Below are positions 1 to 43,077 of a stretch of 43,077 bases of DNA, one piece after another (within the stretch, counting starts at the first letter, position 1; each line of letters opens with the position of its first letter). A program made the position numbers and the translations under genes. Location: assembly GCF_029870285.1 (NCBI RefSeq), contig NZ_JACSYA010000039.1:1-43077 (forward strand), written 5' to 3'. The notes under the pieces are model-generated. The model was not told the origin of the DNA. It made no database searches and saw only the letters and a list, made by a program, of their open reading frames with translations. This stretch comes from Delftia sp. PS-11. Lineage in GTDB: Bacteria; Pseudomonadota; Gammaproteobacteria; Burkholderiales; Burkholderiaceae_C.

Positions 1-450
1 CAATTAATTTTTGATTTGATGAAATTTTTTTGACAAAATCCTTTCTCCTCATGATTTTTAATATTCAGTTTTTATATATTTGATATTTTTTGCCAGGCGC
101 AATATACCGCGATGTTCCCTGTGTAAAACGTAAAAGCTGCACCTGGATCGGTGTGAAGCAGCCGGCTGCGGGCCACTATCCATACCAGATCTGATGGTGC
201 ACGGCCGTATGTTGAGATTCATTTTTCCCGGATGGAACTTGGGTTTTGACCCTAGATCGGCTTGCGCGGCATGTTCTTGAAGACTAAATTTCCCAATAGG
301 TAATCTGTCATCCAGGTTGGGTAAGTTCGTGGTTGATTGTGGGTGTTTACTTACTGATTTATTACAAGACATTACACGTATCGTGAGATATAGCGGGAAG
401 TATCTGGATCTTCGTGCTGCATGCACTCCATGCAGGCAGGCAGGCCGGGC
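1..450. other. Non-coding flank, AT-rich at its left end
   Basis: No credible gene is visible. The first ~120 bases are strongly AT-rich, unlike the GC-rich neighbours; the rest drifts towards local composition. A 7-bp inverted repeat with a 5-base loop (417-435) lies just past the stop of the minus-strand LysR gene. It could help end that transcript but has no T-tract. The short open frames here have neither a ribosome site nor a recognisable protein. Confidence 0.6.
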
Positions 451-11301: not shown

Positions 11302-11505
11302 GGGCAGAATCCGGCAGTCCAGTGGTTGGCGCCCGGGATGGTGCCGGGGTCCTGTGACGCGGCGATGACAGCGGCCCGAAGACCCCCTCGCCACTGGCCA
11401 TAGGCCAGCGCCGGCAAACTGCATGGATCGTCGCCCAAGAGCGCGAGCAACGCCTGTGCTGCCCAGAGCAGAGGATTCGCAGAAAGGCAAAGCTGCAGGA
11501 GCCGG

Positions 11506-12480
11506 CTACAGCCAGCCTGCCTTGCGAAAGCGCCGATACAGCAATGCGCACACGCCCAGCACGAACAGCAGCGCCGCCGGATAGCCATAGCGCCACTTGA
11601 GTTCGGGCATCACCTCGAAGTTCATGCCCCAGATGCCGAAGAAAGCCGTGCAGATGGCAAAGATACTGGCCCATGCCGCCAGCCGCTTGGTGACCTCGTT
11701 TTCCTCGATGGAAACCATGGACAGATTGACCTGGATGGCCGTGCCCACGGTATCGCGCATGCCATCGATCAGGCTGTTGATGCGGGTCAGGTGGTCCATC
11801 ACGTCGCGGAAATACTCGCGTGCCCCCATGCAGATGGACGGCACCCGGCTGCCGTTGAGCTTGCCCACCGCTTCCAGCAGCGGAGCCACGGCATGCTTGA
11901 GCTCCATGGCCCGGCCCTTGAGCTCATACAGCTGGCGGATGTTGTCGCGTGCCGCACCCTTGGTGAAGATCTGGCGCTCGATCTGTTCGAGCTCCACTTC
12001 CAGCGCATCGATGATGGGAAAGTAGCGGTCCACCACGGCATCCATCAGGGCGTACAGCACGAAGCCCGAGCCATGGCGCAGCAGTTCGGGTTCGTTCTCG
12101 CAGCGCTCGCGCACGCCCAGAAAGCCGCGCTTGCTGCGATTGCGCACCGACAGCACGAAATTGGGGCCCACGAACACATCGACCTCGCCGTGGTTGAAGT
12201 GGCCGGGGCGGTCTGGCTCGGGCTCCAGCAGATGCATCACCGCGAACAGCGAGCTGCCGTATTCCTCGATCTTGGGCCGCTGGTGGCCGTGCAGGGCATC
12301 CTCCACGGCCAGCGCGTGCAGTCCGAACTCCTCGCGCATCTGTTCGAGCTCGGCCGGCGTGGCATCGGCCAGCGCCACCCAGACGAAGCAGCCCGGCCGT
12401 ACAACGTAATCGCTGATGGCCGTGACGGGGATATCCGCCAGCTTGGCGCCGTTTTCATAGGCTACGCAGTTGATCAGCAT
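11506..12480 (-). CDS. corA: CorA-type magnesium/divalent cation channel
   Basis: This 324-residue inner-membrane protein has a long cytoplasmic N-terminal domain (about 1-255, rich in charged helices) and two C-terminal transmembrane helices (about 265-283 and 298-317). They flank the diagnostic pore motif GMN at about 285-287, here in WGMNF instead of the commoner YGMNF. CorA proteins assemble as pentamers and admit Mg2+ and some Co2+/Ni2+. The start at 12480 has AGGGA upstream; an in-frame extension to 12621 adds residues not expected in the family. The basic C-terminal tail RRFRKAGWL fits a cytosolic end. No Mg-sensing leader could be recognised upstream. Confidence 0.92.
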   Translation of the reverse strand: MLINCVAYENGAKLADIPVTAISDYVVRPGCFVWVALADATPAELEQMREEFGLHALAVEDALHGHQRPKIEEYGSSLFAVMHLLEPEPDRPGHFNHGEVDVFVGPNFVLSVRNRSKRGFLGVRERCENEPELLRHGSGFVLYALMDAVVDRYFPIIDALEVELEQIERQIFTKGAARDNIRQLYELKGRAMELKHAVAPLLEAVGKLNGSRVPSICMGAREYFRDVMDHLTRINSLIDGMRDTVGTAIQVNLSMVSIEENEVTKRLAAWASIFAICTAFFGIWGMNFEVMPELKWRYGYPAALLFVLGVCALLYRRFRKAGWL

Positions 12481-12536
12481 GCAATCCCTTGAAGCAGTCG
12501 AACAGGCGATCGTGCCACAAAGGAGGCCGGTGACTG

Positions 12537-12854
12537 CTAGCCGAAGACCGGACGGAAAAAGCTGCGTTCGTAGCTCAGGATGCAGCGCGTGTCCTGCGCA
12601 TAGCGGAAGGCTTCCATGCAATCCGGGTCCTGCATGGACTGCAGGCGGTACGCTTCGTACAGAGCCATGCTGGGGAAGGTGAACATGGCCAGCGCCACAT
12701 TGTTGGCCCCCTCCGATGGCAGGAAATAGCCATGGTGCCTGCCGCCGAATTTCTCGACCAGAGGAATCCAGAGCCGGCCGTAATGCTCGAACTCCTTGGT
12801 CTTGAACGGGTCGATGATGTAGCGCAGGTAGCAGGTGATTGCGTTGGAGGCCAT
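12537..12854 (-). CDS. NIPSNAP-family protein
   Basis: This small 105-residue cytoplasmic protein has the ferredoxin-like dimeric alpha/beta barrel fold expected of NIPSNAP proteins. Recognisable features are the opening strand ITCYLRYIIDPFKTKEFEHY, the GGRHHGYFLPSEG loop in the middle and a C-terminal Tyr/Phe/Arg-rich helix and strand. The biochemical role of bacterial NIPSNAP proteins is not established. It starts 17 bp after the stop of the chemoreceptor gene on the same strand, so read-through from that gene is likely, although a functional link is not obvious. Confidence 0.8.
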   Translation of the reverse strand: MASNAITCYLRYIIDPFKTKEFEHYGRLWIPLVEKFGGRHHGYFLPSEGANNVALAMFTFPSMALYEAYRLQSMQDPDCMEAFRYAQDTRCILSYERSFFRPVFG

Positions 12855-12871
12855 AGGGGAACCCGTGGAGA

Positions 12872-14428
12872 TTAGAGCTTGAACGATGTGGTCAGGCGCG
12901 ACAGCTTTTCCGACTCCTGCTGCAGCACCTGCGTTGCGGCCGATGACTGTTCGACCAGTGCCGCATTTTGCTGGGTCATGCGGTCCATGTCTGTCACCGC
13001 ATGTCCCACTTGTTCAATGCCGCTGCTTTGCTCGCGGCTGGCCGAGGCGATCTCGGAGACGACGCCAGTGATGTTGCGCACCGTGGAGACCACTTCCTGC
13101 ATGGTCTGCCCGGCCTGATCGACCAGGGAGGCGCCTGCCTCCACGCGTTCCACCGAGGCCTGGATCAGGGTCTTGATTTCGCGCGCCGCAGAAGCGCTGC
13201 GCTGGGCCAGCGTGCGCACTTCGCCGGCCACCACGGCAAAGCCCCGGCCCTGCTCGCCCGCGCGGGCCGCTTCCACAGCCGCATTCAGCGCCAGGATGTT
13301 GGTCTGGAAAGCAATGCCATCGATCACGCCAATGATGTCCACCACACGGCGCGACGAGGCATTGATTTCGCCCATCGTGGTCACCACCTGGTCCACCACG
13401 GAGCCGCCATGCTCGGCGACCGAGCTGGCATTGGCGGCAATTTTGCTGGCATGGTCCGCGTTTTCCGCGTTCTGGCGCACGGTGGCCGTCAGCTCCTCCA
13501 TCGAGGCAGCGGTTTCCTCCAGCGAGCTGGCCTGCCGTTCCGTGCGCTGCGACAGATCCAGGCTCCCGGTGGCAATCTCCTGGGCGGAGCGGTGGATGAC
13601 ATCCGCCGTCTCGTGGATGCGCGTGACCAGCTGGCGCAGCTGCGCATTCATGCGCTCCACTGCGGCGATCACGCTGCCTTGCGGCGCGCGCGAGGCGCCC
13701 TCCAGCCCGGTCTGCGACAGATCCCCGGAGGCAATGCGGTTGGCAATCTCGGCGGCGACGGCGGGTTCACCGCCGATGGCGTTGAGCACGCTGCGGGCCG
13801 CCACCCAGGCAATCACCGTCAGCAGCGCGCCCAGCACGGTCAGCGCCACGGCCGACTTGATGATGGTGGCGACGAATGTCTGCTGGATATCGTCCACATA
13901 GTCGCCCGCGATGAGATCCCAGTTCCATGCGGCCGAGCGCTTGACATAAGCCAGTTTCTCACTGGGCTCCTTGGCATTGGGGCGGGGCCACCAGTAGCTG
14001 AGGTAGCCGCTGCCCTGCGCCGAGGCGCCCACGGCCGCAATGTTGCGATACAGGTAGCTGCCCTTGGCATCCTGGAAGCCGCTCATGTTTTTGCCATTGA
14101 TCTTGGGGCTGGCCGGGTTGTTGAGCACTACCGAGTCTGTGGTGATGCTGGTGATGTAGCCTGCGCCGCCCGCATAGCGCAGCTGTCCCACGCGGGTGAT
14201 GGCCATCGCCTTGGCTTCCTCCTCGGACAGCTTGCCTGCCTTGGCCTCCGCTGCAATCGCCGCGATGAGGTTGTCTGCCGAGTCCACAAAGTCACGCAGC
14301 GCCTGCTGCCGTGCCTCGTAGGCTTTGTCACGGGCATGGTAGGCGTTGAAGAGGGTCAGCGCCAGCAGCGAAAGCAGGCAAAAGACCAGTGGTGCCAGCA
14401 GTTTCTGGCGGAAGGACAGGGTCGGCAT
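12872..14428 (-). CDS. Methyl-accepting chemotaxis protein with single Cache domain
   Basis: This 518-residue receptor senses ligands in the periplasm and signals to CheA/CheW. An N-terminal transmembrane helix (about 13-30) is followed by a periplasmic sCache-like sensor (about 35-185, with GGAGYITSI and YLSYWWPRP), a second transmembrane helix (about 188-208), HAMP (about 210-265) and the cytoplasmic coiled-coil signalling domain. The hairpin tip is intact and highly conserved: [20 protein letters not shown] followed by [12 protein letters not shown]. Flanking Gln/Glu-rich methylation helices are visible. It lacks a C-terminal NWETF-type CheR-binding pentapeptide. No che genes lie in the window, so it is an orphan receptor whose ligand is unknown; small organic acids are typical for this Cache type. 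Confidence 0.93.
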
Positions 14429-16510: not shown

Positions 16511-17377
16511 TCAAGAGCCCAACGCGTGCGCCAGGAACTCTGCCGTGACGCGCACTCTGGCCGTGCGCTGCAGGTCGGGGTGCATGACCTGCCAGACCTC
16601 ATAGTCACTTGAGCGCTGGCGCTGCGGCCAGATGCGCAGCAGGCCTTCGCGCTCGCCCATGCTCACGGGCATCTCGCCCAGGCCGATGCCAGCCGCCACG
16701 GCCTTGCGCACCAGCAGGCTGGAGTTAGCCGCCATGGCAATCCTGGCCTGGCGTGCGGGCACATCGACCATGGTGGGAATGGGCCGCTGCTCCAGGAAGG
16801 GACCGTACACCACGAGGTGGTGGCCGCGCAATTCGTCCTCTGCCACGGGTTCGCCAAAGCGCGCCACATAGGCTGCGCTCGCAAACAGGCCCACGGGCCA
16901 GGCGGCGACACGGCGCACCACCAGCTCCGGCGCCTCGGGGCGGACGTTGCGAAACGCGATATCGGCCTGGCGGCGGCCCAGGTTCAGCATGTGCGTGGAG
17001 ACCTCCAGATCCACGCGGATGGCGGGCCAGCGCTGCTGCAGGCGCTCTATGGCGGGCAGCAGGAATTCGGTGGCAATCGAGTCGGTACTGGTCACGCGCA
17101 CCAGGCCGGCCGGGCTGTCGTCCAGCCCTTCGATGCGCGTGCGCAGGTCCAGCGCCGCGCTTTCCATGCGCCGCGCGGCGCCCAGCGCTGCCTCGCCGGC
17201 AGCGGTGAGCAGGTAGCCATCCTTGGCGCGCAAAAACAGCTTGCTGCCCAGTTCGGCCTCCAGCGCGTTCAGGCGCCGGCCCACGGTGGCCTGGTCCACG
17301 CCCAGGCTGCGCGCAGCGGCTCGCAGGGAGGGCGTGCGTGTCAGCGCGAGAAAGATGCGTGTGTCGTCCCAGTTCAT
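16511..17377 (-). CDS. LysR-family transcriptional regulator
   Basis: This 288-residue LysR regulator has its winged HTH at residues 1-60 (LRAAARSLGVDQATVGRRLN) and an effector-binding domain at about 90-285. The start at 17377 puts the HTH at the very N-terminus (MNWDDTRIFLALTRT); the frame extends to 17431 without added homology. It is divergent from the quinone reductase gene at 17502, and the 124-bp gap contains two GCAA-centred dyads. By family behaviour it probably represses itself and controls the reductase. Its effector is unknown. Confidence 0.9.
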   Translation of the reverse strand: MNWDDTRIFLALTRTPSLRAAARSLGVDQATVGRRLNALEAELGSKLFLRAKDGYLLTAAGEAALGAARRMESAALDLRTRIEGLDDSPAGLVRVTSTDSIATEFLLPAIERLQQRWPAIRVDLEVSTHMLNLGRRQADIAFRNVRPEAPELVVRRVAAWPVGLFASAAYVARFGEPVAEDELRGHHLVVYGPFLEQRPIPTMVDVPARQARIAMAANSSLLVRKAVAAGIGLGEMPVSMGEREGLLRIWPQRQRSSDYEVWQVMHPDLQRTARVRVTAEFLAHALGS

Positions 17378-17395
17378 GGCAGTGGTCAGGGTGAT

Positions 17396-17426
17396 GCAAA
17401 TTTGCAGCACTCTAAAGCAAAATTGC
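17396..17426. promoter_or_regulatory. Paired GCAA-TTGC dyads, candidate LysR operator
   Basis: A perfect 10-bp palindrome GCAAATTTGC (17396-17405) is followed by GCAAAATTGC (17417-17426, symmetric apart from the two central bases). The start-to-start spacing is 21 bp, about two helical turns. They lie in the divergent gap between the LysR and quinone reductase genes, where a LysR tetramer would be expected to bind. Confidence 0.55.
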
Positions 17427-17501
17427 TGCATTCAAGTGGCTTGTGGCAGTCGTAAGCTCTGGGCAATCCGATGTTCAACCCTTTGTGAAAACGCTCCTGC
17501 A

Positions 17502-22162: not shown

Positions 22163-22498
22163 TCAGTCGGCCACGACCTGCAGCCCGCCGCCCTGGCTGT
22201 GCGCACGCAGGCACATTTTTCCGAGATCACCCAGAAAGCGCTGTACCTGCCCTTCAAGCGCACACCAGGGCATGACGGCCAGGATGTCGTTGTGCAGCTC
22301 CAGCAGCCCGGAGCCGCAGACCGGCAGTTCTGGGCAATTGCGGTAGTGGTGTCTCCAGAAATCCTGCAGCAGTCCCTGTTGCATCTTGCCGACCACCAGA
22401 GGATAGCCGCGCTGCCAGACATGTTCATCCATGGGCAGCGAGCGCAGGCCTGGGGTATCTGGCCGCCCACCTGCGGGAATCAGCAATATGCGGCGCAT
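22163..22498 (-). CDS. Unknown 111-residue protein downstream of small lipoprotein
   Basis: I do not recognise this protein. It starts at ATG 22498, only 7 bp after the lipoprotein stop, so the two are probably translated together. It begins MRRILLIPAGGRPDTPGLRS and continues with an acidic/aromatic stretch (MDEHVWQRGYPLV). A Trp/His/Cys-bearing middle (DFWRHHYRNCPELPVCGSG) and helical segments to the C-terminus follow. There is no signal peptide or membrane segment. The opposite strand also has a long open frame here (22073-22555), but the tight spacing behind the lipoprotein favours this one. It is the last gene in the same-strand run that begins with the TOMM kinase. Confidence 0.55.
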   Translation of the reverse strand: MRRILLIPAGGRPDTPGLRSLPMDEHVWQRGYPLVVGKMQQGLLQDFWRHHYRNCPELPVCGSGLLELHNDILAVMPWCALEGQVQRFLGDLGKMCLRAHSQGGGLQVVAD

Positions 22499-22505
22499 AT
22501 CCAGC

Positions 22506-22937
22506 TTACCTGCAGGCGCCCGGGCCGCCGGACGATACCGGGGATGCGGATATGACCGATCCGTCGGCAGCCGGGTCGATGATGAGGCGCGCGCATTTGC
22601 CCCCTGCGGTGCCCACGGCCATGCCCAGGTTGGCGTCATAACGGATGCGGCCGTCAGCCTGCGTGATCCGGATCCGGTTGGGCGCGTTTTGCACCATGCG
22701 GCAGAAATTCTGCGCAGCGGCCGGGCTGGTGCAGTACTTGGGCAGCAACTGGCTGCCACCGGCCGTCGCGGTGCAATGCTGGTCGTAGATGCGCTGAAAA
22801 CCCGCCTGCGTGACGACGCATGCCGCATCCGCGCCTTGCTGCTCCTGTTCCTGCACGTTCGCGCCAGGGGTCTGGCACCCTGCCAGCAGAGCCACGGCCA
22901 CCGCGCAGAGAACGTAGAAGCGGTTGGGGCTTGTCAT
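22506..22937 (-). CDS. Small lipoprotein of unknown function
   Basis: This 143-residue predicted lipoprotein has a short basic N-terminus, a hydrophobic stretch (FYVLCAVAVALLAG) and a lipobox LLAGC with acylated Cys21. The mature part has four further cysteines in its first two-thirds and one each near GGKC and the end (GACR). Disulfides are therefore likely in the periplasm. An upstream in-frame start at 23021 would bury the signal. I recognise no domain. It lies 233 bp downstream of the FHA gene on the same strand and immediately upstream of the 111-residue unknown gene. Whether it belongs to the TOMM system is an open question. Confidence 0.7.
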   Translation of the reverse strand: MTSPNRFYVLCAVAVALLAGCQTPGANVQEQEQQGADAACVVTQAGFQRIYDQHCTATAGGSQLLPKYCTSPAAAQNFCRMVQNAPNRIRITQADGRIRYDANLGMAVGTAGGKCARLIIDPAADGSVISASPVSSGGPGACR

Positions 22938-23170
22938 GATGGGCTTGGGCGGCGTAGGGGCGACGTGCTGTACTGCGAAATCAGCGCAGATGGGAATCAG
23001 ACACCGCAGCGTTGGCTGCATGCCTGGTCAGGCGGTTGTACGCGGTGGCGGTGTGTGTCGTTCCCATGGCCTATCTTTTGGACAGTGGTTGAGGAGGCGG
23101 TTTGCCCCAGAACAGCAGTGGTTTGCAGGCTAATGTATTCACGGGGGAAGCGAAACGGAATTACAGGAAA

Positions 23171-24115
23171 TTACAGTCGTGCGCCTTGGGCGCCACCCTG
23201 GATTTCAAAGCGGTAGTCGCCGAAACGCAGGCTGCCGCGACGGCGCTCGACCAGCGGCGGGATGGCCGTGTATTCCGGCAGTGCATCGAGGATCTGGTGC
23301 TTGGCACGGAAGATCTGGATGTTGACGTAGGAAGGCTCCACACCCAGCATGCGTGACAGCTCATCCAGATCGATCCAGCCCTGGCTTGGCTGGGCCAGGC
23401 CCCTGAGCGCATCCTGCTGGCGCGCGCGCGCCAGCGTCACCAGGGTGTAGTGGTGTATGCGTTCGCCCAGTGAGATCGGCTTGCCGTCTGCCACCATATT
23501 CAGGCTCACATGCTCTTCGTTCTGGCTGACCTGGAAGCTCAGTGTGATGTCCGGCAGCGCGGGCGCTGCGCAGGCAAAAGTGGCTTCGCGGGTCAGTTCC
23601 AGGTCATCGCACAACACGAACTCCCAGCTTGCCGTGGATGTCCGGACGATGGCCCCGTCGCCCAGCGGTTCGATGCCATCCGTGGACTCCAGCAGCCAGC
23701 GGCCTTCCTGAAAGAAGATGTTGGCCTCGGGCTCCTGCGAATTGGGCAGCAGGTTGCCGCGCTGGTTCAATGCCATGGGAAGCCCTGAGCCCTGGTCCGG
23801 GAACAGGCATGTGACCGGCGCTCCGAGGTCATGCACGGACCAGGCCGACTCTTCGCCTGTCCCCATGCGCAGCTTTGCGCCAACGGTCAGGGCCGTCCAT
23901 CGCCCGGCTGTCAGCCGGGCGCCGTTGAGCACCGTCCCGTTGCGGCTCTGGTCCACGATTTCCCAGGCTTGCCGGTTCCAGCGCACCAGCGCATGGACGG
24001 ACGACACATCCGGTGCGTTCATCACGGTCTGGCAGACTGCGGCACGGCGGCCGAAAGCATGCAGGGGGCGCAGCACGATGAAACGGCCGTCGAGTTGGTT
24101 GCGGAAGAGGGCCAT
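23171..24115 (-). CDS. FHA-domain protein with C-terminal DNA-binding-like region
   Basis: This 314-residue soluble protein begins with a forkhead-associated domain (about 10-90) that reads phosphothreonine. The conserved FHA elements are FGR (21-23), SSVH (38-41), Asn59-Gly60 and LNG (63-65). A central beta-rich part (about 95-215) follows. The C-terminal region (about 225-310) has a helix-turn-helix-like stretch, LDELSRMLGVEPSYVNIQIF, and a basic RRRGSLRFGDYRFEI end reminiscent of winged-helix regulators. AAGGAG lies upstream of the ATG. It sits four genes downstream of the Ser/Thr kinase in the same TOMM run, so it is the obvious candidate reader of kinase phosphorylation, perhaps as a transcription factor. 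That link is inferred. Confidence 0.82.
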   Translation of the reverse strand: MALFRNQLDGRFIVLRPLHAFGRRAAVCQTVMNAPDVSSVHALVRWNRQAWEIVDQSRNGTVLNGARLTAGRWTALTVGAKLRMGTGEESAWSVHDLGAPVTCLFPDQGSGLPMALNQRGNLLPNSQEPEANIFFQEGRWLLESTDGIEPLGDGAIVRTSTASWEFVLCDDLELTREATFACAAPALPDITLSFQVSQNEEHVSLNMVADGKPISLGERIHHYTLVTLARARQQDALRGLAQPSQGWIDLDELSRMLGVEPSYVNIQIFRAKHQILDALPEYTAIPPLVERRRGSLRFGDYRFEIQGGAQGARL

Positions 24116-24253
24116 TGCCTCGCTTTCTCCTTTGGGTATTCAGTTCTGGGGCGCAGCCCGGCGCGCTGCAGATGTTTCGCTGGTGGATGCCGGGCAGAGC
24201 GCATGCCTTATCTTGCCTTGCATACACCATACATCAGGCCTGTTGTCCTGACA

Positions 24254-24278
24254 TGAGCGAACCTGTCGGACCCGCTCA
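24254..24278 (-). terminator. Hairpin after the cyclodehydratase stop
   Basis: TGAGCG/CGCTCA (6 bp, 13-base loop) lies just past the YcaO stop at 24286 in the 170-bp gap before the FHA gene. No T-tract is present. It might partially terminate, giving the FHA gene a lower or separate expression level. Confidence 0.3.
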
Positions 24279-24285
24279 GAGGGTG

Positions 24286-26490
24286 TCAAACATACAGTGC
24301 CTGGGGGTTGAGCTGGCCATCCTGCGTGCACGCGCTGCGCCACCCTAGCGCGGCGGGCACGGTTCGCAGCCGTGGGTTGCCCAGCTCCGGCCAGATGTGG
24401 CACAGGCCGGGGACCACGACCTTCACGGTGCGCAGGGGGATATCGGGGCGCGAATAATCGTATACCAGTGTCTCCAGCCCAAGCTCCCGGGCAATGCCGA
24501 CGCAGTGCGTGATGGTTTGCGTGATCTGCGGCGTGGCGTGCCCGGGAATGCGAAGCGGCGCTGCATCAGCATCCTCCAGAGGATACAGGAAGGCCGGGCC
24601 ATCCTGCGGATGATGCGGCGCCTGGCCGGATGCCACCGCAAAACTCTTGCCTGCGGCGATCAGCTGGCTTATTTCTGTCATTGCACGCTCGCAGGCCACG
24701 CTGCGGTCCGGGCTGCAGCCAAAGCCAACCGCCCATTGGCCATGGGTCCGGTGGCGCCCCACGGCCACAACCACCGGGATGCCGAAATCGTGCGTGATAT
24801 CGAGCAGCCAGTACGACCACTGCGCGCCGCAGGCATGCTCCAGGCGCTGGCGGCTTTCCTCTGCAAGACTGTCCAGCGCGACAGCCGGCCTGCGTACCTG
24901 CCCATACCACCAGATGGCGGCTGCATCGCGCTCTACCAGCTCCAGAAAGCCCTGCAAAATGGCTTCCTCCATCGTGTTGCCTGCTGCGCAGCCGTTCGAT
25001 GTCCAGGTGACGTGGGATTGGCTTTGCGCCGGAGCATGCGCCAGGCAAAAGCCCAGCGGCAGATAGCAGCGCTCGTCGGCGGTCAACGACCATGCAGGGG
25101 TCCACCAGGCGGGCTCTGCTGCAGCGATCTGTCTTGCCACGGCATGCGGCGGCTTGTCGATGGCAAAGCGATCCCTCTGAGCGTCGCTGAAACACGCCAG
25201 TGACGCTGGCGCGATGCTGCGCGCATCCAGTTGCGCCGCAGGCGCGAACACTGCAGCCTCATCGCCCTGGTAGAAGGCTGCGTAGCGCTCAATGGCCTCG
25301 CACATCGCACTGGCGCGAGCCTGTTCCGCCGACAGGCCTTTGCCCAGGCAAAGCTGTGTCCAGGCACCATGCGCTGCGCCGCCGCGCGCATCGGGCGTCT
25401 TGAAGATTTCGCTGCGGTAGACGGTCAGACCCGCGCCGGACTCGGCGGTCAAAGGCACGACCCGCGCGATCACGCCCGTCAGCGGACTGACGTGAGGCAG
25501 CAGGCGCTCGACCGTGGCTGCCGCAGGCATGGAACGCCAGCCTCCATCGCAGCGCACGGCATGTGCATGCGGCGCCGGCATGATGCGTTCGCGCTGCTGC
25601 TGCGCCATCCGCTGCGGTGCTGCGCAGTGCGGGCACTGCGGGCGGCGGGTCACGCAGTGGCGCTGTCTGGGCGACAGCGTCCAGACCGCTGGCGCTGCAT
25701 CGGTGTGCGCCAGCATATGGCGCGCCGTGGCCTGCAATTGCTGCAGCCGCGCGCCTACCAGGGCTGCGTCTGCGCGCACCGGCGGGCAGACATCTTCCTG
25801 CGCCGGATGGCTGTGTCCCCATGTGCGTGAGGGGTGATTGCGCCGCCAGCGATGCGCCAGGCAATGCCAGCAGGGCGGTGCATGGTCTGTGCGCGTGGCG
25901 AACAGCGGGCCCGCCATGGCCTGCTCGCCTGCGGGCCTGACCAGCAGCCAGGGCCTGCCGCAGGCGCGCTGCTGCGCATCGATCGCTGCCAGCCGGGGGT
26001 CCAGATAATCATCGCAGTAGACGACGGTGAGGCCAGCCTCTGCAGCAGCGCCTCCTGACCCATCCTCGCCTTGGACCAGCTCTGCCGCCCAGCGCTGCGC
26101 GGCCGCTGCGTCCAGAGCGGCTGTCAGCAGCACCACATCGACCCCTGCGGCCGCATCCAGGCGCGTGGGCGGCGCCGAGAAGTCAGGCCGCAGATACATG
26201 TCCTGCGCGTGCTCCGCCACGGGGCGCACCAGGCCCTGGCGCAGCAGCGCGCCGAGCGCGTGCAGCATCTGCGCCAGCGGGGCATCCGTGCCAGCGCTGG
26301 CGCAGTACTCGGCCAGGCTCACGCCGCGCTGCAGCGGCTCCTGCAATGCCAGCACGCCTGCCGAGCCCAGCGCCAGGGTTTCGTTTTCGCTGACCAGCAG
26401 CAGCCGCTCGCCCTGCAGCCGTGGCGGCAGGTATTTCCCGTGCCACTGGAATACGCTGGAAAACAGGTCGGGCGCCGAGGCTTCAGGCAT
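24286..26490 (-). CDS. TOMM cyclodehydratase: fused E1-like/leader-binding and YcaO
   Basis: This 734-residue fusion is the azoline-forming enzyme of the peptide pathway. The N-terminal half (about 1-315) is a degenerate E1/ThiF-like partner with a probable leader-recognition part at the front. It keeps the zinc tetra-cysteine: CWHC at 207-210 and CPHC at 286-289. The C-terminal half (about 320-734) is the YcaO domain, which uses ATP to cyclise Cys/Ser/Thr. It is marked by GKGLSAEQARASAMCEAIERYA at about 383-404 and the ELVERDAAAIWW helix. It ends LNPQALYV and lacks the PxPxP tail seen in many TOMM YcaO proteins. The ATG at 26490 overlaps the methyltransferase stop by 8 bp, showing translational coupling. 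No separate dehydrogenase is encoded nearby, so the product may keep azolines. Confidence 0.9.
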   Translation of the reverse strand: MPEASAPDLFSSVFQWHGKYLPPRLQGERLLLVSENETLALGSAGVLALQEPLQRGVSLAEYCASAGTDAPLAQMLHALGALLRQGLVRPVAEHAQDMYLRPDFSAPPTRLDAAAGVDVVLLTAALDAAAAQRWAAELVQGEDGSGGAAAEAGLTVVYCDDYLDPRLAAIDAQQRACGRPWLLVRPAGEQAMAGPLFATRTDHAPPCWHCLAHRWRRNHPSRTWGHSHPAQEDVCPPVRADAALVGARLQQLQATARHMLAHTDAAPAVWTLSPRQRHCVTRRPQCPHCAAPQRMAQQQRERIMPAPHAHAVRCDGGWRSMPAAATVERLLPHVSPLTGVIARVVPLTAESGAGLTVYRSEIFKTPDARGGAAHGAWTQLCLGKGLSAEQARASAMCEAIERYAAFYQGDEAAVFAPAAQLDARSIAPASLACFSDAQRDRFAIDKPPHAVARQIAAAEPAWWTPAWSLTADERCYLPLGFCLAHAPAQSQSHVTWTSNGCAAGNTMEEAILQGFLELVERDAAAIWWYGQVRRPAVALDSLAEESRQRLEHACGAQWSYWLLDITHDFGIPVVVAVGRHRTHGQWAVGFGCSPDRSVACERAMTEISQLIAAGKSFAVASGQAPHHPQDGPAFLYPLEDADAAPLRIPGHATPQITQTITHCVGIARELGLETLVYDYSRPDIPLRTVKVVVPGLCHIWPELGNPRLRTVPAALGWRSACTQDGQLNPQALYV

Positions 26491-27322
26491 GCGGGGCTGC
26501 TTCCAGGTCGAGCCTGACGATGGCGTAGGGTTTTTTGCCCGTGGTGGCCAGGAAGGCCGCCTCGAAGAGCTGATGGCGCTGCGAGAACCGCGCATAGGGA
26601 TGCTCTTCTAAAGTCACGCGCAGCGCTGGATGGATGCGCGCCAGCTGGCTGGCATCCTCGAATCCTGAGACCACGGGCAGCCGCATGCCTCCCACCTGCA
26701 TGGGCAGCCGGGCAAGCGATGGGTGCACATGGTCCAGCACGATGGTGCAGGCCGGCGCGCCGGGTTGCGCGAAGCGTTCTGCCAGCTCATGCAGCATGGC
26801 CTGCAGCGGTGCCTGGGGCAGATAAGGGCATACGCCCTCCATCAGCACCAGCACGGGCTGGCTGCCCGGCAGGCCAGCGGTGTCCAGCCATGAGGTGTCC
26901 AGCATGGAGCAGGCCAGGCTGGTTTCGGCGTCCGAGTGCTGCATCCACTGCCTGCGAAGCCCTATGGCCTCGGGCAGGTCCACATTCAACCAGCGTGCCG
27001 CACCCGCCAGATGGCCCAGGCGGCTGCGGCGCGTGCACAGGCCCGCGCCCAGCGTGATGCACAGTCCGTGCGGATGCGCGGCGAAGAATTCCCGGGCGAG
27101 ATGGTCGAACCGCTGCGCGCGCAGCACCACCCCGCGCACAAAGGCCACATCCTCGGCATGGGCCTCGCAAGCCTGCGGCAGCGCCGCAGCAATGCGGCAC
27201 GCCTGCGGATCTGCCCATGCGGGCAGATCCGACAGACCGGGCAGGTCCGGCTGGCTGGCTGCCCGGGCGCGGGCAGCCAGCGTCAGCAGCAGGGTCGCCG
27301 AAGCTCCCTGCAACTGCGCCAT
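26483..27322 (-). CDS. LCMT/TcmP-type SAM-dependent carboxyl methyltransferase
   Basis: This 279-residue enzyme has the leucine carboxyl methyltransferase (PPM1/TcmP) fold. The SAM-binding strand-turn ITLGAGLCTRRSRL is followed by WLNVDLPEAIGLRR and the family motif VLMEGVCPYLPQ. LCMT-type enzymes methylate carboxyl groups, classically the C-terminal alpha-carboxylate of a protein. I use the ATG at 27322, 28 bp after the precursor stop. A GTG at 27376 would overlap the precursor and add 18 residues. The gene lies between the TOMM precursor and the cyclodehydratase and overlaps the latter, so it is almost certainly a tailoring enzyme of this pathway. Confidence 0.85.
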   Translation of the reverse strand: MAQLQGASATLLLTLAARARAASQPDLPGLSDLPAWADPQACRIAAALPQACEAHAEDVAFVRGVVLRAQRFDHLAREFFAAHPHGLCITLGAGLCTRRSRLGHLAGAARWLNVDLPEAIGLRRQWMQHSDAETSLACSMLDTSWLDTAGLPGSQPVLVLMEGVCPYLPQAPLQAMLHELAERFAQPGAPACTIVLDHVHPSLARLPMQVGGMRLPVVSGFEDASQLARIHPALRVTLEEHPYARFSQRHQLFEAAFLATTGKKPYAIVRLDLEAAPHA

Positions 27323-27350
27323 GGGCGCCGGTGCCGCGCAGCTCTGCGTA

Positions 27351-28136
27351 TCAGCAGGTGAACGGATAGGCGTCACCCGTGTTGTTGTAAGAGGTCAGGG
27401 CGATTGGCCACATGTCCTGCTCTTCGGGCGCGACCGGGTAGTTGAGCACGATGCGATTCTTGATCAGCGAACCATCCTCGCGCAGCAGGTTCCATTGGCC
27501 CCGTGCCGCATCCCAGGTGAAGGATGGCTCGGCGACGAAGCTGATCTGGAAGTTGAAGGGATTGTTGTAGCCCAGCCATTGGCTGAGCACTGCAGCCTTG
27601 TCGCTGCCGTCGTCACGCAGCAGTGCTGCATGGAACTCGGGCGACTTCCAGGCCAGCGCAATGGCGCGCAGCACCACGCCGCCAAAGGCCAGCAGCGAAT
27701 CCGGGCCGCCGCCCGGAATGCCCAGCCCGGTGGGCAGGGCGCCCTTGAGGGCGCCGCTGTCGGACTCTTCGAACTCTGCACTGTTTCCCATGAAGTCGGG
27801 GAACATCTGGTAGTAGGCTGCCAGCGCCTCGGTGGCATGGGTTGCGGGTGCCTGGGGCAGCACGATGACGAAGGCGTCGTCAGGGCCGATCCAGCCCGCC
27901 GTGAGCATAGGCTTCCATTGGGCGCGCATGGCGGGATCATCGCTCATGAGCAGCGAGATGTCCAGCTGCGGCCACAGCGTTGAGAGGCCGAAGTCACGGT
28001 GCAGCAGTGGCTGGATGTCGCGCTGTGCCAGCAGTTCCTGGCGGTAGGCGTCATCCCCCCAGGAGCGGGCAATGCCCCTGAGATAGGCCAGGCGAAATGC
28101 GAGCAATGGATCGGCATTTTGGAGCTGTGTGCTCAT
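27351..28136 (-). CDS. TOMM precursor peptide, BMA_0021/BMA_0022-like, with very long leader
   Basis: This 261-residue protein is the likely substrate of the cluster. It resembles the Burkholderia mallei BMA_0021/BMA_0022 TOMM precursor family, which has a nitrile-hydratase-like leader and ends in AYPFTC. The leader looks internally duplicated: the first unit is about 19-100 (RGIARSWGDDAYRQELL ... VIVLPQAPA), the second about 157-240 (RAIALAWKSPEFHAALL ... RIVLNYPVAP). The tail after about 248 reads TSYNNTGDAYPFTC. Its final Cys261 is the only cysteine in the protein, and Thr253 and Thr260 are the other nearby cyclisable residues. The start is ATG 28136, 18 bp after the kinase stop with GAGG upstream; a GTG two codons earlier is possible. 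The mature product and cleavage site are unknown. Confidence 0.85.
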   Translation of the reverse strand: MSTQLQNADPLLAFRLAYLRGIARSWGDDAYRQELLAQRDIQPLLHRDFGLSTLWPQLDISLLMSDDPAMRAQWKPMLTAGWIGPDDAFVIVLPQAPATHATEALAAYYQMFPDFMGNSAEFEESDSGALKGALPTGLGIPGGGPDSLLAFGGVVLRAIALAWKSPEFHAALLRDDGSDKAAVLSQWLGYNNPFNFQISFVAEPSFTWDAARGQWNLLREDGSLIKNRIVLNYPVAPEEQDMWPIALTSYNNTGDAYPFTC

Positions 28137-28154
28137 GTTCACTACATCCTCGGT

Positions 28155-31100
28155 TCAGGAAAAACGCAGGTGCAAAGGGTCTTGCACGGACAGTTCTGGC
28201 CGCATTGCAGCCAGCTCACGCAGGCGGTCGGCCGCGTCCTCCTGTCCGTCGTGACCCAGAGCCTGCGACATCGCCAGCGCCTGAGCCTCGATACGGTACT
28301 TTGCAGCCGCCCGCGCCATGAGGATAGCCTGTTTCAGGCTCGCCTGGACGGTCGCGCTGCCAATGTTCATGGCCAGCAGGTAGCGGGCTTTCTTCAGATG
28401 CAGCTCTGCACTGTGCAGTCTTTCGTCCAGCACATCCGCCAGGCGCAGGCATTCGTCGATGCGCGCCAAGGCTTCGTCAAAGCGGGCATGCGCTGCCAGC
28501 GTCTCCGCCGCGAAGGAGCGGTAGTAGGTCTGGCAGTAGCGGCAGCCCATGTCCCAGAGCAGCTGAGCCATGGCATCGGCATGCGCGATATCTTCCAGGC
28601 GCCCTCCTGCCCAGCAGCGGATGATTTCGGCGTAGCCCGTGAAGGCTGGCAGGCCGTAGCGCGCGGTGATGTCCAGCAGTTGCCCCACGGTAGCCTGCGC
28701 GCTGTCCCGGTCCCCGCGCGCCTGATGGCCCAGCCCCTGGTAGAGCAGTGCCATGCTCAGCGAAGGAATATGCGAAACATCCTGGGACTGGCGCACCGCA
28801 TCGGCGGCATCGGCGCGCGCGGACTGGTCATAGCCAGCGAACCAGCGAACCAGCGCACGGCCGCTGGTGGCCCAGGCACGGGTGTCGAAGCCGAATTCCG
28901 CAGCATGGTGCGCATGGGCCACGGGGTCATACCGGTTGATGGCATCGGTCAGCGCCTGCTCGGCCAGATCGAAATGGCCGTCGGAGTAGTGGGCCAGGCC
29001 CAGGTACGTCTGTGCCGCCACGAGCACGCCCGTGTCCTGCTGGCGTGATGCATGGCCCAGCAGGCGCCTGCTCAGCCGCCGAACTTCTTCGCGGTTGCTG
29101 GCCACATGGTGGTAGGTGATGAGCATCCACAGGTGCTGCACCTGCTTGTAGTCGGCCACCGAGTCGGTCAGCAGGTCCTGCGACAGCGCAATGCGTTCCA
29201 CCACCTGCGCATGGGCCCAGCCATTCTTGTTCATCAGCGCCTGCGTCACGTAGCCGTTGACATCGAGCCGCGCTTCGCGCTGTGCGTCCCCTTCGAGCTG
29301 GTGGATCCAGTCCTCGATATGGCTGGCGTAGGCAATGGTTTCATCGTTCAGCGAGCGCAGCTGCGTGATGCGCAATTGCTGCACCGCATGGGGCACGGCC
29401 TGCGCATAATCGCCAGCATCTGCCCAGTGCTGCGCCACGACGGCTGGCTCCGAGGCGATGCGCTGCGGATAATGCTGCGTCAGAGCCTGCGCCACATCGC
29501 CATGCAGCTGCCTGCGCCGCGCCGCCAGCATGCACTCGTATGCCGTATCGCGGATCAGCGCGTGGCGGAAAATGAAGGCGCCCGATCCAGAGCGCTCATC
29601 GGCCATGATCAGGCCCGCATGGCCCAGCGCCACCAGGTCCTGCTCCACGGTACTGCGCGGTATCTCCGTGCAGGCGCACAGCAGATCAAGTTCGAAATGC
29701 CGGCCGATAGTCGCTGCCAGCTGCAGCAGCGGCTTGAGCGGCCCGATCCGGTCAAAGCGGCTTACCAGAGAGTCGCGCAGCGTCAGTGGAATGGCGGCAG
29801 GCTGCTCCGCATGCCGGAAGTCCCAGACGCCATCCTTTTCTTCCAGGTAGGCATCCATCAGCATGCGCACCATTTCCTGGATGAACAGCGGCACGCCGTC
29901 AGTGCGTTCCACCACGTGGCGGATCACGGCTGCGCTGGCCTGGCGCGGTGCCAGCACCTGGCCTACCAGCTCTGCGGCACGTTCGTCCTCCAGGCGCTTC
30001 ACTTCCACGCAGTCCGCCTGCAGTCCGGCGGGCGCGCACCACTGTGGCCGCGCCGTCAACACCAGCAGCACGCGCTGCCTGGGCAGCCTGGCAGCCAATT
30101 GCTCGATGAGTTCAATGCTGGTGGGATCTGCCCAGTGCACATCCTCGACCACGATCAGCATAGGCCCGGATTCGGCCATGTGCAGCAGCCACTGAACGGC
30201 CGATTGCAGCAGCAGTGTCCTTTGCATCACGGCAGAGACCAGGCTGGGCTCGCAATCTCCCAGCGGCAGCGAAAGCCATGCACAGAAGATGGGCAGCACC
30301 GCTTGCGCATCACACCCCGCCGCCTGCAGGCTGCTGCGCAGCCGCTCGCGCTGATCCTGCGGCTCGGCGGCTTCCAGGTGCTTGCGCACAAGCCCCAGGA
30401 AAGGTGTCAACGCCGTATTGCGGTGCTCGGGCTGGCATTGCACGACCACCGTCCTGGCCGCCTGTGCCTCGGCATGGGCGCGCAGCATGTCGGCCAGGCA
30501 TGACTTGCCGATGCCAGGCTCTCCGCGGATACATATGGCCTGCCCGTTGCCCAGGCGAGCATGTGCCCAGGCGGTGTACAGGCTGCGCAGTTCGGGCTCA
30601 CGGCCGATGCAGGAGGGCGCTGCATCCTGCGTCATGCTGGGTGCTGGTGCGGCCTGCGCGCCTTCACCCAGGCGGTAGGTCTGGATGCCCGTGCGCTGGC
30701 CTGGCAGGCGCACGCTGCCTGCCGCCTCGAAGTGGGCATGGCGCGACAGCAGCAGGTGGCTGCTGTCGCTGGCCAGCAGCGTCCCGGTATCGGCCAGGGA
30801 TTCCAGCCGCATGGCGACGCTGACGGCATGCCCCGATGGCACCTCGCCGCTGGCCACCACGGCCATGCCGGTGTGCATGCCCATACTGATGCCCAGATGC
30901 ATGCCATGGGACTGCTCGACCGCCTCGGACCGGCTGCGGCTGAGCTCCAGCATCTCCTGGGCCGTCATGCAGGCCTGGCGCGCATCGGTGTCGCTGGTGT
31001 GCGGATAGCCGAACAGCACAATCATGCGGTCGCCCAGCGTGCCCGCCAGCATGCCGCCGCGCCGTGTCGCCGCCTCGGCAAACAATCCGAACTCCTCGCG

Positions 31101-32183
31101 CTGCAGCAGTTCGGCATCCTCTATGTCCAGTGCAGGCGTGCCATGCGGCCCACGGCCGTCCGCGCCGGACGCCTGCCAGACGGAAACACTGCAGCACAGC
31201 ACCGTCAGCTGGCGCATTTCCGAAAAACCGCGCGATGTCACTACCGTGCGCGTCAGATCCTGCCCCTGTGGCGGCGATGCTGCCGGCAACGTGCCGACAA
31301 GATCATCCAGACGTATGCGCATCAGGTCGGCCAGCAATCCCGCCGCCGATTCGCTGCGCTCCATGGCCTTTTTCTTCAGGGCCTTGCGCAGCAGCGAGGC
31401 GACGGGGTGCGCCGCAATCCCGGCAGGCAGCGGTATTTCCTGCGGGCTCAGCTGCTTGTGCATGATCTCTGCCACGGACGAGCCCTGCACGGCAGGGGCT
31501 CCCGTCAGGCATTCAAGGAACATCAGGCCCCACGCGTAAAGGTCGGTGCGTGTGCTGGGCGGCTCGCCGCGCAACTGCTCCGGCGCGCTATAGGCCGGTG
31601 TGCCCAGGAACTCGTCTCCCATGGTCAGTTGGGAAAACTGCTGATCCGACAACTGGGGAATCACCGTGCCGATGCCGAAATCCAGCACCATGGCATGCGC
31701 AATGGCGCCCGTAAAGGTCACCATCACGTTATCGGGCTTGAGGTCGCGGTGCACGATGCCTGCGGCGTGCGCGCAGTCCAGCGCATCCAGCACCTCGGAC
31801 ATGAGGCGGCCCGTTTCCGTGGCCGTCAGCGCACCCTGGCGCCGGATGAGGCTCTTGAGGGTTTCTCCAGGCACATACTCAAAGACCCCGTAGACGCAAT
31901 CGTCCTGTTCTCCCTTGTCCAGCAGCTGGACGATGTGCGGGTGGTGCAGCGAGGCGCACAGCATGGTCTCGCGGTGAAAACGCTCCACATGCCGACTGCC
32001 GGCCTGCAGGCGCACTACCTTGATGGCTACCGATGCGCCTGTGCGCTGGTGCCGTGCCCGGTAGACAGTGCCGTAGCCGCCCGAGCCCAGGAGTTCCAGC
32101 AAATCGTAATCCGGTATCTCCAGCTTGGCTTGCGCCAACCGGGACACATCTGCGTGCGTGGGGTTGGTGATCGCATCCTGCAT
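28155..32183 (-). CDS. TOMM-system Ser/Thr kinase/cyclase-like fusion with AAA ATPase and TPR
   Basis: This 1,342-residue cytoplasmic regulator begins with a complete protein kinase domain (about 26-290): glycine loop GSGGYGTV at 33-40, Lys55, HRDLKPDN from 145, DFG at 168-170 and APE at 200-202. A class III adenylyl/guanylyl cyclase-like domain follows (about 322-505). There the first metal-binding Asp expected in the opening strand is a Ser (LTVLCCSVSV), although GD at 384-385 remains. An AAA/NTPase module has Walker A GEPGIGKS at 554-561 and VVEDVHWADP. The C-terminal half is helical TPR-like repeats. The layout matches the kinase/cyclase fusions known from TOMM clusters. It is the first gene of the run, 18 bp before the precursor. 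Confidence 0.9.
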   Translation of the reverse strand: MQDAITNPTHADVSRLAQAKLEIPDYDLLELLGSGGYGTVYRARHQRTGASVAIKVVRLQAGSRHVERFHRETMLCASLHHPHIVQLLDKGEQDDCVYGVFEYVPGETLKSLIRRQGALTATETGRLMSEVLDALDCAHAAGIVHRDLKPDNVMVTFTGAIAHAMVLDFGIGTVIPQLSDQQFSQLTMGDEFLGTPAYSAPEQLRGEPPSTRTDLYAWGLMFLECLTGAPAVQGSSVAEIMHKQLSPQEIPLPAGIAAHPVASLLRKALKKKAMERSESAAGLLADLMRIRLDDLVGTLPAASPPQGQDLTRTVVTSRGFSEMRQLTVLCCSVSVWQASGADGRGPHGTPALDIEDAELLQREEFGLFAEAATRRGGMLAGTLGDRMIVLFGYPHTSDTDARQACMTAQEMLELSRSRSEAVEQSHGMHLGISMGMHTGMAVVASGEVPSGHAVSVAMRLESLADTGTLLASDSSHLLLSRHAHFEAAGSVRLPGQRTGIQTYRLGEGAQAAPAPSMTQDAAPSCIGREPELRSLYTAWAHARLGNGQAICIRGEPGIGKSCLADMLRAHAEAQAARTVVVQCQPEHRNTALTPFLGLVRKHLEAAEPQDQRERLRSSLQAAGCDAQAVLPIFCAWLSLPLGDCEPSLVSAVMQRTLLLQSAVQWLLHMAESGPMLIVVEDVHWADPTSIELIEQLAARLPRQRVLLVLTARPQWCAPAGLQADCVEVKRLEDERAAELVGQVLAPRQASAAVIRHVVERTDGVPLFIQEMVRMLMDAYLEEKDGVWDFRHAEQPAAIPLTLRDSLVSRFDRIGPLKPLLQLAATIGRHFELDLLCACTEIPRSTVEQDLVALGHAGLIMADERSGSGAFIFRHALIRDTAYECMLAARRRQLHGDVAQALTQHYPQRIASEPAVVAQHWADAGDYAQAVPHAVQQLRITQLRSLNDETIAYASHIEDWIHQLEGDAQREARLDVNGYVTQALMNKNGWAHAQVVERIALSQDLLTDSVADYKQVQHLWMLITYHHVASNREEVRRLSRRLLGHASRQQDTGVLVAAQTYLGLAHYSDGHFDLAEQALTDAINRYDPVAHAHHAAEFGFDTRAWATSGRALVRWFAGYDQSARADAADAVRQSQDVSHIPSLSMALLYQGLGHQARGDRDSAQATVGQLLDITARYGLPAFTGYAEIIRCWAGGRLEDIAHADAMAQLLWDMGCRYCQTYYRSFAAETLAAHARFDEALARIDECLRLADVLDERLHSAELHLKKARYLLAMNIGSATVQASLKQAILMARAAAKYRIEAQALAMSQALGHDGQEDAADRLRELAAMRPELSVQDPLHLRFS

Positions 32184-42316: not shown

Positions 42317-42706
42317 GGCGAAAAAACCTACCACTACAACGGCGCAGAACGGCTGATTGGCTACGCCAGCCAGCCCGAAGGCCACAGCACCCCGAACATC
42401 GAAGCCCACTACCGCTACGACCCACTGGGCCGGCGCATTGCCAAACAGGTCAAAGAAGGCCAGGCAGATCCATGAAGCGAAGCTGACGCACCCGGACACT
42501 GGCATGCACTACCTGCATACGGACCACCTGGGAACACCGATGCTGGGCACCAGTCAACAGGGTGCAATCACATGGAAAGCGGTGGCGCAGGCGTTTAGAG
42601 CCACGCAGACGCTGGCGCAAAGCCAGGTGGAGATGAATCTGAGGTTTCCGGGGCAGTACTGGGATGCGGAGTCAGGGAGTCACTATAACTTCCATAGGGA
42701 TTACAG
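42317..42706. repeat. RHS tip-junction repeat, copy 2
   Basis: This is the partner of 40322-40711 at a constant 1,995-bp offset. Blocks A and B are nearly identical to copy 1 and flank a 44-bp segment that is not conserved. Confidence 0.9.
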
Positions 42707-43077
42707 TTCACTACTTGGTAGATATGTGCAGCTTGATCCAATAGGTCTTTGGAGTGGATTAAATTTATTCAGATATTCAGAAGACAATCCTTTAAATAAA
42801 ATTGATTATCTTGGATTATTGACAGATTGCAATAAATGCACAACAGATCCTGATTTGGATATTTCTTGTTTTGCTCAATGTGGTGATCAATCATCATGTC
42901 AAGAATGTTGCCATGCACAAGCAAGAAAATTGGCTATGGAAGGAACTAATCCTGCAAAAATAGGCTTAAGGTTTATATTAGAGTGCACTAAAACATGTGT
43001 TCTTTGCGATGCACCAAAACAACAAGATGATTCTGCCCCAGAACCACCTGAAAAACCTTTGTGGTACGAATTATTTC
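42317..43077 (+). pseudogene. Orphan RHS tip 2 (Cys-rich), runs off the window
   Basis: This second copy of the RHS core end has no full core upstream. Block A (42317-42462) ends in the core frame at a TGA (KQVKEGQADP, stop at 42474-42476). The RHS tip frame is +1: RQIHEAKLTHPDTG, then MHYLHTDHLGTP from ATG 42504. RDYSSLLGRYVQLDPIGL and NPLNKIDYLGL follow, then a new tip with ten cysteines (DC, KC, SC, QC, SC, ECC, EC, TC, LC) and a Pro/Glu-rich stretch. The frame is still open at the last base. It is AT-rich after about 42,710. Orphan tips like this are donors for switching the tip of the full RHS gene. Confidence 0.75.

Follow-up and report, generated by a model that had tools for sequence, protein, structure and literature searches.

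Gene content of the TOMM cluster

Seven genes, all carried on the minus strand between positions 22163 and 32183 of the window (the whole stretch of DNA analyzed, 43,077 nucleotides), lead from a large Ser/Thr kinase fusion to a gene for a 111-residue protein (Table 1). Coordinates and profile searches bore out this gene run as described in the initial annotation, together with its identification of a kinase-linked TOMM cluster, as the precursor, the kinase fusion, and the E1-YcaO protein all scored above curated cut-offs. The kinase (P0006) matched TIGR03903 with 1302.4 bits (cut-off, 705.75), and the precursor (P0005) matched TIGR03795 in two stretches with 167.8 bits (cut-off, 41). The E1-YcaO protein matched TIGR03882 with 74.2 bits (cut-off, 36.9) and PF02624 with 274.8 bits (cut-off, 25.7), and its score against TIGR03604, the SagD-family YcaO profile (218.7 bits), fell 0.55 below the cut-off of 219.25. 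The methyltransferase and the FHA protein were assigned by PF04072 (44.9 bits; cut-off, 22.3) and PF00498 (44.9 bits; cut-off, 20.7), respectively, and neither the lipoprotein nor the 111-residue protein matched a Pfam or NCBIfam family above cut-off. The most likely start codons are ATG 28136 for the precursor and ATG 26490 for YcaO, the latter within the 3' end of the methyltransferase gene. The cluster YcaO is the sole YcaO match in the host genome.

Table 1. Genes and predicted regulatory elements of the cluster (window positions)
Feature	Position	Strand	Basis
Ser/Thr kinase fused to a degenerate cyclase-like domain, an AAA_16/STAND ATPase, and a TPR-like C terminus	28155..32183	-	TIGR03903, PF00069, PF13191, weak PF00211
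TOMM precursor, fused tandem NHLP-Burk pair, C terminus TSYNNTGDAYPFTC	27351..28136	-	TIGR03795 in two stretches; 41-row alignment
Carboxyl methyltransferase, LCM family	26483..27322	-	PF04072; alternative upstream GTG start 27376 possible
E1-like leader-binding domain fused to YcaO cyclodehydratase	24286..26490	-	TIGR03882, PF02624
FHA protein: FHA domain 1-99, beta region ~100-187, predicted OmpR-like winged helix ~188-310	23171..24115	-	
Direct repeat TGTAAT-N4-TGTAAT, a predicted operator that overlaps the FHA stop codon	23160..23175	-	Motif counts
Predicted -10 element TACATT, 22 bp after the operator	23132..23137	-	TANANT spacing
Small lipoprotein of 143 aa with a LAGC lipobox and a conserved Cys; first of the predicted target genes	22506..22937	-	11 loci
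111-residue protein, its gene 7 bp past that of the lipoprotein; also a predicted target	22163..22498	-	29 loci

The kinase, precursor, and E1-YcaO protein belong to the known NHLP-Burk TOMM type, for which Haft, Basu, and Mitchell (2010; PMC2887384) described a fused tandem precursor in Delftia and Acidovorax and named a large Ser/Thr kinase in the legend to their Figure 2. Because that type and the present cluster share the TIGR03795 precursor, the fused E1-YcaO protein, and the large kinase, the biosynthetic core is not new. However, "FHA" does not occur in that paper, and the parts of it available to us contain no operator or target genes. In the open-licence literature, we found no paper pairing a cyclodehydratase with an FHA domain and no purpose for the NHLP-Burk cluster kinase; among open-licence papers on the family accessions or on "TOMM system kinase," only that of Haft et al. 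was on the subject by its title. The features that look new are the constant partnership of FHA gene and kinase, the combination of FHA domain and winged helix, and the TGTAAT-N4-TGTAAT repeat.

The kinase fusion consists of a kinase domain (residues 26 to 277), a cyclase-like domain (residues ~325 to 505), and an AAA_16/STAND ATPase (residues 525 to 708) ahead of its C-terminal part. In an alignment of 41 rows, some of them partial (L110, L117, and L119 to L121 were left out), the catalytic residues K55, D147, and D168 are kept in 40, 41, and 40 rows, respectively, the exceptions being one gap each, and the Walker A Lys and Walker B Asp are kept in all 41. The position that we take to be the first metal-binding Asp of the cyclase-like domain is occupied by Ser, Gly, or Thr in 40 of the 41 kinases (Ser in the window; L068 alone keeps Asp), and the second Asp is retained in 27. 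We therefore rejected an active cyclase, and from these substitutions the domain looks like an inactive relic. Thus, in the earlier description of a kinase/cyclase/AAA/TPR fusion, the cyclase label was overstated. Matches of the cyclase region in the PDB were topped by designed repeat proteins; real cyclases ranked lower, with the first motif not covered. Three loci (L078, L087, and L120) have the kinase frame broken into overlapping pieces, by pseudogene formation or sequencing error, and an open precursor frame. Relatives of the cyclase-AAA-TPR part with no match over the kinase domain occur in L007 to L010, L115, and L116, and those in L115 and L116 have no FHA or TOMM match next to them.

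The precursor tail reads T(S/A)YN(N/H)TG(D/S/P)(A/P)YPFTC in all 38 loci that carry the methyltransferase, in six versions overall, across the host's genus, Variovorax, and the genus of G363. The tail is not uniform over the whole family: the precursors of the seven loci without methyltransferase end in CC (six) or CN (one), L067 ends in YPFTCN, and the six loci in which the FHA gene comes first have tails of the type AAY-N-C/D-A-x-P-x-YLFTCC. The core of the precursor is thus nearly constant within its clade, whereas the NHLP core was called hypervariable in the available part of a 2015 survey (PMC4603692), and such constancy speaks against a diversifying bacteriocin. A fold search with the precursor gave nitrile hydratase as its best match, at a nonsignificant E value of 0.31.

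In the set studied, the methyltransferase is present only where the precursor has a single terminal Cys. Members of the LCM family methylate C-terminal carboxylates, and the enzyme might cap the carboxylate derived from the C-terminal cysteine of the precursor, giving a methyl-ester tail. We hold the chances of this reading, which complements our main interpretation below, to be about even: FTC ends accompany the enzyme in 38 of 38 cases and CC or CN ends its absence in the other seven, but this pattern needs just one or two changes on the YcaO tree and may reflect shared descent, so that we take it as a hint that the methyltransferase acts on the terminal cysteine. In L098, the methyltransferase and YcaO genes are separated by ~2 kb (positions 10911 to 12878), compared with ~0.1 kb in its relative L100, indicating an insertion.

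The FHA protein and its linkage to the kinase

With the host counted, genomes with a TIGR03795 match above cut-off numbered 11 among 399 from the family, 4 among 399 from the order, 22 among 100 from the genus of G314, and 7 among 17 from the genus of G363. We took 40 stretches around such loci, a number that includes two additional ones, left out matches below cut-off, and added plasmid-collection records and FHA-bearing loci from a class-wide FHA search, in which 5 of 369 genomes, host included, matched at 1e-15. L011 to L016, which represent the same places as other sampled loci, were excluded from alignments; of the near-copies, L122 was left out of the -10, final-table, and permuted-hexamer counts and L123 out of the -10 and permuted-hexamer counts.

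The final table holds 44 loci, including the window, with both kinase and precursor. An FHA gene is present in 40 of them, and the other four (L059, L060, L078, and L087) stop at a contig edge first, so that the FHA gene, which had been put forward as a possible undescribed part of the system, is a genuine and constant one (40 of 40 loci where visible). In 34 loci the FHA gene follows YcaO, and in the remaining six (L064, L068, L117, and L119 to L121) it comes before the kinase. One locus, L089, has the precursor, methyltransferase, and YcaO with neither kinase nor FHA gene within 20 kb. Conversely, the kinase adjoins the FHA gene in six of the seven FHA loci without TOMM genes, and since these pairs (L017, L110, and L111 to L114) have no precursor or YcaO in the stretch examined, the kinase-FHA pair is a separable module. 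Likeness to the cluster kinase is confined to the kinase domain in L111 to L114. The FHA genes of the Pseudoalteromonas near-copies L118 and L123 have no kinase match within 9 kb on either side. One genome, G1198, has two FHA-kinase pairs (L111 and L113) without TOMM genes in the stretch, with boxes of the kind described below near one pair alone.

An all-against-all comparison of neighboring genes, made with a simple gene caller that missed some genes and with sets in two groups lacking annotation, found beyond the cluster one family in at least three compared groups, which is regulator-like and lies outside the cluster (representative, window positions 16511 to 17431). No exporter, protease, or immunity family common to at least three compared groups was found beside the cluster genes.

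The FHA domain has the features of a phosphothreonine reader. Residues G22, R23, S38, H41, and N59, which we take to be the phosphothreonine-pocket residues, are invariant in 27 aligned rows of the 37 FHA proteins. A structure model of the whole protein has a mean pLDDT of 87.6, and the fold matches listed for it cover the FHA part alone; its C-terminal part is modeled as strands, a helix, a short strand, two helices, and a hairpin, an order that we compared with the winged-helix topology of OmpR. Against a profile of host OmpR winged helices, the C-terminal part scored such that 1 of 200 column shuffles was as high and none of 200 was as high and as long, whereas the FHA and middle parts did not rise above their shuffles. 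Alignment of the C-terminal part with the OmpR set by hhalign gave a low probability (7%) with a P of 0.0048; as a comparison, one of five hhalign comparisons of the 111-residue protein gave a P of 0.008, apparently by chance. The larger OmpR set had 25 rows, one of which looks spurious, and a first set of six sequences gave no signal. The FHA gene was not among the 26 matches to PF00486 in the host genome at E values up to 10, and a search of the viral library returned winged-helix matches at E values of 0.3 to 0.4. On the basis of the model and these comparisons, which on balance lean towards such a fold, the protein is predicted to combine an FHA domain with an OmpR-like winged helix, as would a transcription factor under phosphorylation control. 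The FHA domain and its pocket residues support the initial designation of an FHA reader, but, with its predicted winged helix, the protein resembles a transcription factor and not merely a reader.

A direct repeat behind the FHA gene and its candidate targets

The repeat TGTAAT-N4-TGTAAT, here called the box, occurs 38 times perfectly and 10 times with one mismatch in 1,064,507 bases of the loci (L122 and L123 included); over the same bases, TGTAAT pairs with a 5-base gap gave two perfect copies and those with a 3- or 6-base gap gave none within one mismatch. The 45 TOMM loci contain 31 perfect boxes in 30 loci, compared with eight sites for 59 permuted hexamers jointly (six of these being GTAATT, in all likelihood the box sites read one base out of register) and no TGTAAT repeat at any other gap from 0 to 20. 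In the seven FHA loci without TOMM genes, five perfect boxes are found in four loci, compared with one site for all permuted hexamers and two for all other gaps from 0 to 20; in L110, one of the seven, a box with one mismatch precedes the FHA gene. The window has two boxes with at most one mismatch, compared with 0.02 expected from dinucleotide shuffles. Most boxes come from related genera and are related by descent, so that the counts overstate independence; more weight attaches to the return of the box in distant FHA loci. L064, L065, L066, L069, L017, L113, and L120 lack a box even when one mismatch is allowed.

The box is followed at a fixed distance by a candidate -10 element. When boxes with identical sequence over the next 40 bases were treated as one, TANANT was found exactly 22 bp past the box in 29 of 41 distinct boxes and at most once at each other spacing from 0 to 43. 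Of 34 loci, 31 have a box immediately after the FHA gene, and 30 of these 31 also show TANANT at the 22-bp spacing; the exception, L057, has a -10-like element at 23 bp. The boxes of L068, L117, L119, and L121 have one mismatch, and none is directly behind the FHA gene or has TANANT at 22 bp. Because of the promoter predicted behind the FHA gene, two transcription units are likely for the cluster rather than one. A second perfect repeat in the window (positions 361 to 376, minus strand), located where GC content is low and one end of the contig is close, has no -10 element at 22 bp and no clear downstream gene. At positions 42504 to 43077 (plus strand), a frame of low GC3 with an Rhs-like start runs off the contig.

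Such a repeat could in principle serve an ordinary PhoB/OmpR response regulator, as a Pho-box-like site having nothing to do with the FHA protein, since direct repeats spaced by about one helical turn are typical for PhoB/OmpR proteins, but an ordinary regulon would be expected genome-wide, 800,000 bases of host DNA (15% of 5.44 Mb) held no perfect box and one with a mismatch (a count equal to those for gaps of 3 and 5), and the sites follow FHA genes in unrelated hosts, which makes this explanation very unlikely.

In the 44 TOMM loci with kinase, the 500 bp ahead of the kinase frame contain no box, and for this reason the biosynthetic genes appear, from the placement of boxes, to be outside the box regulon in most loci. 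The exception that goes against this is L121, in which the order is FHA gene first, then kinase, and a box with one mismatch and no -10 element at 22 bp lies ~440 bp ahead of the FHA gene and hence ahead of the whole FHA-kinase-precursor-YcaO run.

Among the loci in which the FHA gene follows YcaO, 33 extend far enough to be judged (L090, whose contig ends early, was left out), and 29 of these carry the 111-residue gene; it is absent from all six with the FHA gene ahead of the kinase. The lipoprotein gene was found in 11 loci only, in one of them weakly (L057). Hence, the neighborhood comparison called for by the initial annotation upholds the 111-residue gene as a recurrent companion, and its suggestion that the two genes form a pair of system parts holds less well for the lipoprotein. 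A box is found in all 29 loci with the 111-residue gene, compared with one of four without it (L067, as opposed to L065, L066, and L069). The lipoprotein and 111-residue genes look like targets of the FHA protein rather than biosynthetic parts. The 111-residue protein has W28, Y32, F47, W48, and C96 among its invariant columns (11 rows), and a PDB sequence search returned no match. We considered and rejected a relationship to the nitrile hydratase beta subunit or activator, with no PF21006 match in the host at E values up to 10 and an hhalign P of 0.37.

Other genes take this place in other lineages. In Burkholderia, L117 and L119 each have a box with one mismatch, followed at 22 bp by TANNNT instead of TANANT, that points to a PixA-family gene (PF12306, 103.2 and 113.3 bits; cut-off, 21); a third Burkholderia record, L120, is without a box. 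L111 has a perfect box, lacking a -10 element at 22 bp, that faces a PF05526 gene (106 bits; cut-off, 25), for which the family name is all we have; another box there, with one mismatch and a -10 element at 22 bp, faces a gene adjoining the kinase. The Variovorax loci L080 and L088 have genes of 246 and 230 residues, of no family, between the FHA gene and the next cluster gene, where L080 also has a tail-collar-domain gene. In L118, a box with a -10 element at 22 bp lies ~330 bp ahead of the FHA gene itself. The targets vary by lineage while the box and the FHA gene persist.

A candidate phospho-signaling switch

The linkage, domain architecture, repeat, its fixed spacing, and its rarity come directly from the computations, and they lead us to propose, as a probable though far from certain interpretation, that the TOMM operon contains a phospho-signaling switch running from the kinase through the FHA-winged-helix protein and the box promoter to the target genes. 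A ligand at the AAA/TPR part would fire the STAND-type Ser/Thr kinase, which would phosphorylate a threonine of its own, of the FHA protein, or of some other protein, and the FHA domain would bind this phosphothreonine. The C-terminal winged helix would then bind the box. If the -10 call is right, the repeat would lie at about -50 to -35 of the promoter behind the FHA gene, the position of a class II activator, and binding would turn on, rather than repress, the targets: the lipoprotein and 111-residue protein here, the extra genes in Variovorax, and probably the PixA-family genes in Burkholderia. The biosynthetic genes would, in most loci, share the kinase transcript, with no box over them.

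Among known systems, type VI secretion co-encodes a kinase and an FHA protein (PpkA and Fha/TagH), as here, but the TagH profile scores far below cut-off for the cluster FHA protein, for which a winged helix is predicted instead. Mycobacterium EmbR, whose partner kinase is PknH, has its winged helix first, followed by a BTAD and then the FHA domain (residues 289 to 382 in the fold-match listing), whereas in the cluster protein the FHA domain comes first and the winged helix last, and a Pfam scan at E values up to 1 gave no BTAD match. In the AfsK/AfsR and SARP systems, a Ser/Thr kinase feeds a winged-helix activator that binds direct repeats near the -10 element. The proposed switch would follow the same logic, with the differences that here the kinase carries STAND/TPR parts and the activator an FHA domain. 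If real, it would constitute an EmbR-like pathway from Ser/Thr kinase to promoter in Proteobacteria with its own DNA site, and the FHA domain with its probable winged helix, the candidate operator, and the short target list make the purpose of the kinase testable.

The findings also call into question the bacteriocin reading of NHLP-Burk precursors. TOMMs are often bacteriocins, and a small lipoprotein near a bacteriocin cluster is the usual immunity candidate; the cluster might accordingly make an antibacterial peptide, with the lipoprotein and 111-residue protein as immunity proteins switched on by the kinase system. We regard this as rather unlikely, given a precursor tail that is nearly constant across genera within its clade, the lack of an exporter or protease family in at least three compared groups beside the cluster genes, and the occurrence of TOMM genes with neither of the two genes in the sequence examined (L064 to L069, L089, L117, and L119 to L121). 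Quite improbable, in our estimate, is the alternative that the FHA protein acts posttranslationally, docking on the phosphorylated kinase or a biosynthetic enzyme to gate TOMM production, with the box belonging to another regulator. Kinase-encoded FHA proteins act in this way in type VI secretion (in part, PMC3953482), and the FHA gene runs together with enzyme genes in the loci; however, such a role would leave unexplained both the predicted C-terminal winged helix and the boxes beside FHA genes in distant TOMM-less loci, and the score of the protein against TIGR03354 (TagH) is 31.8 against a cut-off of 120.25.

Returning to the proposed switch, we offer one extension of it that is speculative and, on balance, unlikely: that the TOMM product, nitrile-hydratase-like with an azoline tail, is a signal and not an antibiotic, staying in or near the producer, where, sensed through the kinase's STAND/TPR part, it would drive the switch at the box promoter. 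This idea derives from the near-constant tail within the clade and the lack of a conserved exporter or protease family with the cluster, as well as from biosynthetic genes that in most loci seem not to belong to the box regulon and that are constantly linked to the switch. Against it, L089 keeps TOMM genes with neither kinase nor FHA gene nearby, the switch occurs without TOMM genes, and the one-mismatch box of L121 precedes the whole run. If true, a RiPP would be a ligand of a bacterial Ser/Thr kinase-to-promoter pathway.
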